Source of the DNA: Rhodospirillales bacterium
Lineage (GTDB): Bacteria; Pseudomonadota; Alphaproteobacteria; Rhodospirillales; CAMCUA01
Assembly: GCA_947470575.1 (NCBI GenBank)
Contig: CANITX010000008.1
Location: 1-37,844 of the forward strand
DNA length: 37,844 nt
Direction: 5' to 3'
Shown here: positions 5,504 to 10,148 of the stretch, piece by piece
Layout: each line of letters starts with the position of its first letter
Numbering within the stretch: the first letter of the stretch is position 1
Position numbers and translations under genes: made by a program
Notes under the pieces: model-generated
The model's input: only the letters and a program-made list of their open reading frames with translations
The model's database searches: none
Told to the model about the DNA's origin: nothing

Positions 5504-6193
5504 ATGACTCCAAACGAAACCCCGCACCATCAGGACGATCCCGTGACGGCTATTGCGGACGAAGGCGAAGGCGCGGTGCCGACCGATGCGGCGGCCAACG
5601 AAAATGCCGCTGCTTCGGCCGATCCCGAGGTGCTGGCCGCCGAACTCGCCGATGCCCAGGACAAGCTGCTGCGCGCGCTCGCCGAAGTCGAAAACGTCCG
5701 CCGCCGGGCGCAGCGCGACAAGGAAGACGCCACGCGCTACGCCATCGCCGGCTTTGCCCGCGATATGGTCGGCGTCTCCGATGACTTGCGCCGGGCCCTC
5801 GAAGCCATCGCGCCGGAGGCCCGCGCCGCCAGCGAAGCGGTGAACAATCTGGCCGTCGGCGTCGAGATGACCGAACGTACCTTGCTTTCCGCCTTGGAAC
5901 GCAATGGGGTGAAACCGATGGAGGTGATCGGCCAATTGTTCGATGCCAATCGCCACGAAGCGCTTTACGAGGTGCCCGATCCCAATCAACCCGCGGGGAC
6001 CATCGTGCAGGTGGTGGAACGCGGTTACATGCTGCGCGACCGCCTGCTCCGCCCGGCTAAGGTCGGCATCGCCAAAGGCGGCCCTCGGGCCGAGCCGCAG
6101 CAGGCGTCCGGAGCCGAGGCCCCCAGTCATCGCGCTTCTTCGGCCTATGAAAAGCGCGGGGACGCCGGCGGTTCATTTAACGAGGAACTTTAG
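5504..6193 (+). CDS. grpE: GrpE nucleotide exchange factor
   Basis: 229-residue co-chaperone that releases ADP from DnaK. The N-terminal 40 residues are acidic and low-complexity, followed by the long coiled coil (about residues 45-90; DKLLRALAEVENVRRRAQRDKEDATRYA split over heptads) and the four-helix/beta domain containing NGVKPMEVIGQLFDANRHEAL and the GTIVQVVERGYMLRDRLLRPAKVGI signature. GAAGGA precedes the ATG at 5504. It is co-transcribed with hrcA. The C-terminal 35 residues after the signature (PRAEPQQ...) are a variable tail. Confidence 0.96.
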   Translation: MTPNETPHHQDDPVTAIADEGEGAVPTDAAANENAAASADPEVLAAELADAQDKLLRALAEVENVRRRAQRDKEDATRYAIAGFARDMVGVSDDLRRALEAIAPEARAASEAVNNLAVGVEMTERTLLSALERNGVKPMEVIGQLFDANRHEALYEVPDPNQPAGTIVQVVERGYMLRDRLLRPAKVGIAKGGPRAEPQQASGAEAPSHRASSAYEKRGDAGGSFNEEL

Positions 6194-6200
6194 GCGTCGC

Positions 6201-6240
6201 GGGAACGCACCCCCCCCTGGCTGCCGTCGCGTGCGTTCCC
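6201..6240. terminator. Stem-loop between convergent grpE and ompW
   Basis: Perfect 10-base inverted repeat GGGAACGCAC (6201-6210) and GTGCGTTCCC (6231-6240) with a 20-base loop, placed 7 bases after the grpE stop and 17 bases beyond the ompW stop. There is no T-run on either side, so if it stops transcription it does so without a classical U-tract, or it serves as a 3' stabilizer for both messages. Confidence 0.5.
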
Positions 6241-6257
6241 TGACCGAGGCCTTCCGG

Positions 6258-6920
6258 CTAGAATTTGTACCCGACGCCGATGCCGAAGAGCCAGGGGTCA
6301 AGGTCGACCTGACCGGTGATGGCGCCACCGTTCAAACTTGCATCGGCCTCGATGAACACCTTCTTGATATCTAGATTGAGCGACCACTTGTCGTCGATCT
6401 GATAGTCCATGCCGACCTGCGCGGCAAAGCCGACGGAAAAATCATCGAACGACAGGCTTCTCACCGTGCCGCCGGCGGCGTCGGCAGCGTAGAAAAGCGT
6501 AACGTTCAGGCCGGCGCCGACGTAGGGACTGAAACGCGATTTCGGGAAGGGGTGGTATTGTAGGGTCACGGTGGGCGGCAACAGCCAGACGTCGCCGACA
6601 TCCACTTTGCCGAGCGTGGTGCGATTGGCGGAAATACTATGGGGGGTGGTGGCCAAGATGAGTTCGGCGGCGATGTAATCCGTGAAGAAATAAGAAAAGT
6701 CCAGTTCCGGGACGAGCGTATTGCTGGCATCCAGTTCGCCGCCGATGACGCTGACGCGGGAATCGTTTTCGTCGGGCACGACGCCGACGGCCCGAAGGCG
6801 TACCAGAAGATCGCCCGCTTTCTTGCCTTGTAGGCCTGCATCTTGTGCGTAAGCCTGTTCGGAATGAGTTGCCAGCACCATGACCAGCATGGCGGCGACA
6901 ATGGCGATCTTTCTGTTCAT
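6258..6920 (-). CDS. ompW: OmpW-family outer membrane protein
   Basis: 220-residue precursor of the small eight-stranded OmpW barrel, a porin-like protein thought to pass small hydrophobic compounds. A signal peptide is plain: basic MNRK, hydrophobic core, and AYA|QD cleavage after about residue 25. Family features include the GDLLVRLRAVGVVPDE strand, LDFSYFFTDYIAAEL, LPPTVTLQYHPFPKSRFSPYVGAGLN, the DLDPWLFGIGVGYKF end, and a C-terminal phenylalanine as expected for BAM-dependent insertion. The ATG at 6920 follows GGAGAGGGCAAGG; the frame opens earlier (6998) but without a signal peptide. A putative FNR-type site and -10 element lie upstream (6984-7025), suggesting oxygen-dependent control. 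It is monocistronic, converging on grpE. Confidence 0.92.
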   Translation of the reverse strand: MNRKIAIVAAMLVMVLATHSEQAYAQDAGLQGKKAGDLLVRLRAVGVVPDENDSRVSVIGGELDASNTLVPELDFSYFFTDYIAAELILATTPHSISANRTTLGKVDVGDVWLLPPTVTLQYHPFPKSRFSPYVGAGLNVTLFYAADAAGGTVRSLSFDDFSVGFAAQVGMDYQIDDKWSLNLDIKKVFIEADASLNGGAITGQVDLDPWLFGIGVGYKF

Positions 6921-6983
6921 CCTTGCCCTCTCCAATCTCTTTGGTGCCGTGTGACGACGGCATGGTCTCGCGCAATAGAAATT

Positions 6984-7025
6984 TATGTATCCGCCCAAGG
7001 CAGAGGATGAATTGATCTAAGTCAT
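6984..7025 (-). promoter_or_regulatory. Putative FNR/CRP-family box and -10 element of ompW
   Basis: Reading the minus strand, ATGAC-TTAG-ATCAA occupies 7025-7012 and TACATA occupies 6989-6984. The box matches TTGAY-N4-RTCAA at 9 of 10 positions. With transcription starting about 7 bases after the -10 (near 6977), the centre of the box (7018.5) falls at -41.5, the standard position for class II FNR activation. No good -35 element is present, as expected for an activated promoter. Spacing and match were worked out by eye. Confidence 0.5.
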
Positions 7026-7093
7026 GCTAAAGGTCGCAGCTCGGCACAATTGCGAGCCGATACGGCTGCCAGACGCCTTAGCGCTTTCGCTCG

Positions 7094-7987
7094 TTAGAGA
7101 TCGGCCGATCGGATGGGCGACAGGGTATCTGCTTCTGCGTCAATTTCGGCCAAGCGCCGTTTGGCCCGCTCCCGATCGCTTACCGCATAGCAATAGATGC
7201 GGCCGTGCGGGCAGGAGTCATAAGCGCCGATATCCGTCGAACGGGCGCAGGCACAGCCCTGCCGGTGCGATTTTTGGGCGGCGGCGATGTGCCGACCGGC
7301 GACGTCGGAAAGGCGGGCTGCGTCGATGCAATGGGCCTCGCCGACGCCATATCCCAATAGCTGCGGCTGGCCGCACAAGGTCAGCTGCATGCCGTGTTCG
7401 GTGGCGATGGCTGCGAATTCTGCCAGTAAAGCTCGTTTCTCGCTGTCGTCCGGATCCTGCCAAGAAAAACCGTGGCGGATCGCGGCTCGGTTCAGATTGC
7501 GTTGCGTCTTACGGTAGACCTGCAGGAACGAGACGACGACTTCGTCGACAGCGCCGGCCAGCCTCGCGGCCAGCCGCGCGAAGTTTTCCTTATGCCAGGC
7601 GGCGGGCGTCGTGTCGGTAACGGCGATGGGGTCGTAGCGCCATACGGCGGATCGTCGCCCGTAACGTTGCGAAATCCGTTGCAAAGCCGCCACGCCGTCG
7701 GCGGCCAATGGCGTTGCGGCGTCGAGTGCGCGGGGATAGCCGGTGATGGTCTGCTGGACGATGAAAGGGTCCCCACGTCCGTGGACGACGGCCAGCGCTT
7801 CGGCGAAGGGTGCCGGATTGCGGGTCCAAAAGACGAACCCGTCGACGGCCTCGCGGTCCAGGTCTACCCGGTAATCGGGTCCGCCGTAGGGGTTGGCGAC
7901 CCGACAGCTGCCGCTGGCCAGGCGGTTCAGAAACCAGGTGCCATAAAAAGCCGGGATGTCGGTGCGATAACTGGCCGAAACGATCAC
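7094..7987 (-). CDS. DUF1848 family protein with altered cysteine cluster
   Basis: 297-residue member of the DUF1848 family (N-terminal SASYRTDIPAFYGTWFLNRL; DGFVFWTRNPAPF; VVVSFLQVYRKTQRNL; LTLCGQPQLL). Family function is unknown; the C-terminal cysteine group resembles the iron-sulfur site of radical SAM enzymes. Here that region is GCACARSTDIGAYDSC (C245, C247, C259) followed by PHGRIYCYA (C266). The position that would complete C-x3-C-x2-C is Arg263 (codon CGC, forward strand 7199-7201), one transition from a Cys codon. It therefore may not assemble a normal cluster, unless the change is an error or recent mutation. The gene is divergent from dnaK and separated from ompW by 173 bases, with no obvious partner. 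ATG at 7987 lies in the dnaK upstream region. Confidence 0.85.
   Translation of the reverse strand: MIVSASYRTDIPAFYGTWFLNRLASGSCRVANPYGGPDYRVDLDREAVDGFVFWTRNPAPFAEALAVVHGRGDPFIVQQTITGYPRALDAATPLAADGVAALQRISQRYGRRSAVWRYDPIAVTDTTPAAWHKENFARLAARLAGAVDEVVVSFLQVYRKTQRNLNRAAIRHGFSWQDPDDSEKRALLAEFAAIATEHGMQLTLCGQPQLLGYGVGEAHCIDAARLSDVAGRHIAAAQKSHRQGCACARSTDIGAYDSCPHGRIYCYAVSDRERAKRRLAEIDAEADTLSPIRSADL

Positions 7988-8222: not shown

Positions 8223-10148
<1,926 letters not shown>

Follow-up and report, generated by a model that had tools for sequence, protein, structure and literature searches.

Has a gene of the uncharacterised DUF1848 family, located next to dnaK in a Rhodospirillales bacterium, lost a site of its product by a single base change, or is the base wrong? 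The question arises from the window, i.e., the complete stretch of 37,844 nucleotides analysed here, in which the DUF1848 protein carries Arg263 at the middle position of its C-terminal C-x3-C-x2-C motif. A sequence-only reading had left three options, namely a real loss of the cluster, a variant relying on Cys245 or Cys247, and an error. The first is best supported by the results below, the second is unlikely in view of the invariance of both cysteines beside Cys263, and error persists as a rival. No paper mentioning DUF1848 or PF08902 by name was found in the literature searched, so that any statement on function rests on resemblance.

A single invariant cysteine is replaced in an otherwise conserved protein

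The window protein matches the PF08902 (DUF1848) profile with an E-value of 1.6e-83 and 281 bits (cut-off 30.5), covering profile positions 1–262 of 262 (Table 1). Its C-terminus reads GCACARSTDIGAYDSCPHGRIYCYAV and includes the site C259-P-H-G-R263-I-Y-C266, in which the C-x3-C-x2-C motif, intact at the C-terminus of relatives, is broken. Six of the seven invariant DUF1848 cysteines are present and the seventh is Arg. Translation bore out the open reading frame, the coordinates and the numbering of Cys245, Cys247, Cys259, Arg263 and Cys266 proposed earlier, and the same holds for the CGC codon (plus-strand gcg at 7199–7201, minus-strand codon 263) and for the surroundings of this codon, where no frameshift or stop was seen in the window gene. 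By profile and position, the protein as predicted is still a homologous DUF1848 member, without the full C-terminal motif. A single DUF1848 copy was found in the source genome.

Table 1. Features of the DUF1848 region (positions in the window).
Feature	Coordinates	Strand	Remark
grpE	5504..6193	+	neighbour
Stretch missing from G001	6193..7963	.	OmpW-family gene and DUF1848 except its first codons
OmpW-family outer membrane protein gene	6258..6998	-	between grpE and DUF1848
DUF1848 protein gene	7094..7987	-	297 aa, GTG start; PF08902 domain at residues 2-268
Codon 266	7190..7192	-	last Cys of the C-x3-[C]-x2-C site
Codon 263	7199..7201	-	CGC (Arg); Cys in all other rows examined
Codon 259	7211..7213	-	first Cys of the C-x3-[C]-x2-C site
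Codons 245-247	7247..7255	-	Cys-x-Cys pair, invariant among relatives
Codon 220	7328..7330	-	invariant Cys
Codon 205	7373..7375	-	invariant Cys
dnaK	8226..10148	+	neighbour, divergent to DUF1848

The search for homologs covered 60 relatives, 385 genomes of the class, 398 of the phylum and 317 of the order, and was extended to the best 80 of 175 named genome loci as well as to plasmids, phage records and viral contigs (5 of 6 plasmid and 2 of 8 phage records fetched). The resulting larger alignment holds 284 rows, 226 of them distinct, and takes in Bacillota, Bacteroidota, Cyanobacteriota, an archaeal plasmid, phage records and viral contigs; it retains L027, a radical SAM chimera and no true DUF1848 protein, and leaves out L142, which has no C-terminal segment.

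Position 263 is Cys in all 113 deduplicated relatives of the first alignment and in 225 of the 225 other distinct rows of the larger one, Arg occurring in the window row alone; distant members from plasmids and phage records likewise have Cys here. Aligning the family at this position was the check suggested by the sequence-only reading, which had named two findings that would speak against it: relatives do carry Cys, as the first of these foresaw, and Arg is not common in the family (0/225), contrary to the second. By that reading's own rule, Cys in the relatives points to an error or a strain mutation. Among the 66 columns conserved to at least 95% in the 113 distinct relatives, the window departs at one, which is 263. 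Cys205, Cys220, Cys245 and Cys247 are present in the window and are Cys in every row of the larger alignment with a residue there, and all seven cysteines are invariant in 35 of 35 rows of a further alignment (A2), from which the window was left out. The nearest relative bearing the gene shares about 64% amino-acid identity, and the searches made found neither a genome of the same species nor a closer relative with a DUF1848 gene. In the sequence as given, Arg263 is a genuine and unique departure, far beyond the variation of the family.

The remainder of the protein appears ordinary. A leave-one-out test was run on 185 sequences after thinning at 90% identity. Here, the window has one departure at position 263, a column invariant in all the other sequences, and a second at position 1, which is an alignment-edge artefact. 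The mean of 0.038 departures over the 185 rows amounts to seven in total, the window's two included, so that no more than five other rows can show any; in overall fit, the window protein ranks 42 from the worst of 185. General decay of the gene was searched for and is absent, given the single departure among the conserved columns and the ordinary leave-one-out fit. The diverged C-terminal tail was considered as a sign of decay and rejected, since no H[DN]P occurs within 25 residues in 61 of 207 distinct tails, a set that includes 6 tails of fewer than 15 residues.

DUF1848 resides beside dnaK and is dispensable in the genus

The neighbouring genes are named grpE and dnaK after their sequence and conserved order. 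DUF1848 lies divergent to dnaK at 68 of 80 named loci (L057–L136; the best 80 of 175), with grpE on its other side in 38 of those 68 (flanks of up to 3 kb). Among the remaining 12 loci, 11 have no DnaK or GrpE match in their flanks and one (L080) has GrpE, HrcA and Rph only. As the place divergent to dnaK is common to relatives, the window gene is a positional ortholog, and in Alphaproteobacteria this uncharacterised family is associated with the heat-shock locus.

One further genome of the genus, G001, was examined; its proteins share 97% (HrcA), 76% (GrpE), 94% (DnaK) and 91% (DnaJ) identity with their counterparts in the window, and it keeps hrcA, grpE and dnaK in order. No DUF1848 match was found in G001. 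Its DNA alignment with the window ends at 6192, the end of grpE, and picks up again at 7964, and between grpE and dnaK a minus-strand remnant, IVSARYR, corresponds to IVSASYR from the start of DUF1848. Remnant and gap together indicate that the common ancestor most likely had the gene and that G001 subsequently lost it. Comparison of the two sequences thus marks DUF1848 as dispensable in this genus, and the deletion itself could have no relation to Arg263.

Across the order, the family is patchy, with a match in 113 of 317 genomes. Two genomes carry split copies only, G851 with DUF1848 in three separate pieces, one of them with a stop (L261, G851:C1:4262000-4263100), and G019 with two separate pieces (G019:C229:19260-20017); their sequences suggest broken genes elsewhere in the order.

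Probable recent loss of the C-terminal site

We consider it somewhat more probable than not that Arg263 reflects a recent mutation inactivating a gene that the genus can dispense with. This explanation draws on Cys263 in 225 of 225 other rows, the ordinary overall fit of the protein, the deletion in G001, the patchy distribution of the family and the low number of departures in the neighbouring genes (one in 486, see below). One recent missense change would have swapped the middle cysteine of the C-terminal C-x3-C-x2-C motif for Arg, leaving the gene otherwise intact. By analogy with radical SAM enzymes, the three cysteines of the site would coordinate a [4Fe-4S] cluster at which S-adenosylmethionine is bound and cleaved; the Arg263 protein, if the base is real, would then fold, be unable to hold the cluster and be inactive. 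A related effect is described for viperin, where replacing the first Cys of Cx3Cx2C by Ala is one of several mutations that reportedly eliminated the tested effect (PMC5970183). The Arg263 allele is best interpreted as an early stage in the loss of this gene, which in G001 is already deleted from beside dnaK. As the rest of the gene is undecayed, the change must be very recent if the gene is dying.

The alternative of most weight is a sequence or consensus error, in which case the organism has Cys263 and the base in the assembly is either mistaken or that of a minority strain; we regard this as possible, if somewhat unlikely. A single transition would suffice, in an assembly of 277 contigs with an estimated contamination of 2.34, and the isolated departure within an otherwise conserved protein looks as an error would. 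Moreover, Arg263 is found in no other row examined, and scanning many genes for oddities tends to select errors. Against this, Rph, HrcA, GrpE, DnaK and DnaJ together show one window departure (GrpE N94D) over 486 columns invariant in relatives, so that the contig is not obviously error-ridden, which is still compatible with a single base error. The DUF1848 gene has no frameshift either, and its dispensability in the genus makes a true inactivating change plausible.

That the metal site is kept in a working variant, with Arg263 tolerated or acting as a ligand, or another cysteine substituting, is very improbable. In its favour, the remainder of the protein is conserved, Cys245 and Cys247 are close by in sequence, and in biotin synthase an Arg is known to coordinate the auxiliary [2Fe-2S] cluster (PMC11138216). 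Against it, that Arg serves the auxiliary and not the SAM-binding cluster, and Arg or any other residue than Cys stands at 263 in 0 of 225 other distinct rows. Cys205, Cys220, Cys245 and Cys247 are invariant alongside Cys263 and so are not spare, each probably having another role already; for the same reason, it was judged unlikely that Cys245 or Cys247 rescues the site.

Taken alone, Arg263 carries modest weight, as it concerns a single genome and is either an error or, probably, one inactivating mutation. Of broader use is the constraint map that it yields for the uncharacterised DUF1848 family, which comprises seven invariant cysteines, the conserved place at the side of dnaK and a testable proposal of a permuted radical SAM fold.

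Resemblance to radical SAM enzymes and a possible permuted fold

The general radical SAM profile PF04055 was not matched by the window protein (E-value up to 0.001), which hit DUF1848 alone, nor by four DUF1848 relatives (E-value up to 10). The PA0069 family of radical SAM proteins (NF033668) resembles DUF1848 in a short segment, in which DUF1848 columns 250–272 pair with PA0069 columns 72–94 (E-value 7e-8) around a shared CxHGCxYCYA/F; the printed pair is 52% identical across its 23 columns. PA0069 proteins are longer and have the site in their N-terminal part, whereas that of DUF1848 is near the C-terminus. Beyond the 23 columns, no extension of the PA0069/DUF1848 alignment was obtained, whether the DUF1848 profile was permuted or not; the permuted profile gave no longer alignment with PA0069 or BioB, in a test whose positive control, BioB with PA0069, failed too (probability 5.8) and which therefore had no power. 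The DUF1848 profile found chance-level matches alone among solved structures (best E-value 0.069).

Predicted models were obtained for the window protein (mean pLDDT 92.4) and for the Cys-bearing ortholog L057 (95.6); over residues 261–270 the values are 80 and 93, a difference that we do not interpret as the sequences and alignments differ. The best refined structural matches of both models are radical SAM barrels, including Elp3, BioB, the PFL-activating enzyme, RlmN and SuiB. The window model matches Elp3 with a Z-score of 9.8 (rmsd 3.6, 185 aligned residues) and BioB with 9.7 (3.7, 188), and the L057 model matches Elp3 with 9.6 (rmsd 3.8, 187), BioB with 9.3 (3.8, 186) and the PFL-activating enzyme with 9.2 (rmsd 2.8, 159). 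Radical SAM proteins account for 13 of 14 rows at a Z-score of at least 8.1 for the window model and for 14 of 20 rows at a Z-score of at least 8.0 for the L057 model. Against a specifically radical SAM barrel, other TIM barrels also score high with the L057 model, e.g., LeuA (8.8) and a designed TIM barrel (8.4), and Foldseek alone ranked hydantoinases first, with a TM-score of about 0.3 for D-hydantoinase, and Elp3 only 15th. Among viral models, Foldseek gave one match (E-value 1.5e-5).

Unlike the radical SAM barrels, DUF1848 has no N-terminal CX3CX2C and carries its own at the C-terminus, and its residue 1 aligns downstream of their cysteine loop. In BioB (8vcw), this loop is at sequence positions 62/66/69 by the alignment count, whereas the alignment sets in at 94 (window model) or 104 (L057 model). 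The E. coli PFL-activating enzyme has its cysteines at 29, 33 and 36, and the part aligned to the L057 model begins at 72. The CX3CX2C of DUF1848 follows the aligned barrel and is itself followed by a helix at 272–280 in the window model. That the models match the barrels from past the cysteine loop, together with the CX3CX2C at the C-terminus, suggests a circularly permuted radical SAM fold for DUF1848 as modelled. In the available parts of PMC1282579 and PMC10853773, the permuted proteins described are methyltransferases.

Tentatively, and with slightly less than even confidence in the whole, these observations could be joined as follows. DUF1848 would be a permuted branch of the radical SAM enzymes, in which barrel strands 2 onward come first and the opening strand, the cysteine loop and the helix come last. 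Cys205, Cys220, Cys245 and Cys247, the remaining invariant cysteines outside this loop, could together make up a second metal site. In Alphaproteobacteria the family would be a resident of the heat-shock locus hrcA-grpE-dnaK-dnaJ, and the window protein would be a natural knockout of the catalytic cluster. If true, the permutation would explain why the general radical SAM profile misses DUF1848, and the radical SAM superfamily, with its great chemical range, would gain a branch without known substrate.

Further occurrences of DUF1848

Several other sightings of the family were made in the course of the searches. In the chimera L027 (G024:C5, a 197-aa ORF), a PA0069-like radical SAM N-terminal part is joined to a DUF1848-like C-terminal tail at CEHGCVYCYA, which is either natural recombination or misassembly via the shared motif. 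A 96-aa ORF (L026, G052:C9:61193-61324) contains the C-terminal cysteine region of DUF1848 a second time, some 1.2 kb away from the intact gene.

Eight phage records contain DUF1848 homologs with 27–43% identity, among them an uncultured phage of 735 kb (L150, LR756501.1, two entries) and human-gut records, e.g., L151 (MT835780.1). On a plasmid of Roseburia sp. 831b (L365, 2729-5942), DUF1848 follows genes annotated as encoding a 4Fe-4S binding protein, a protein-ADP-ribose hydrolase and Sir2. The genes share one strand, and this set is a possible clue to the function of DUF1848 outside Proteobacteria.
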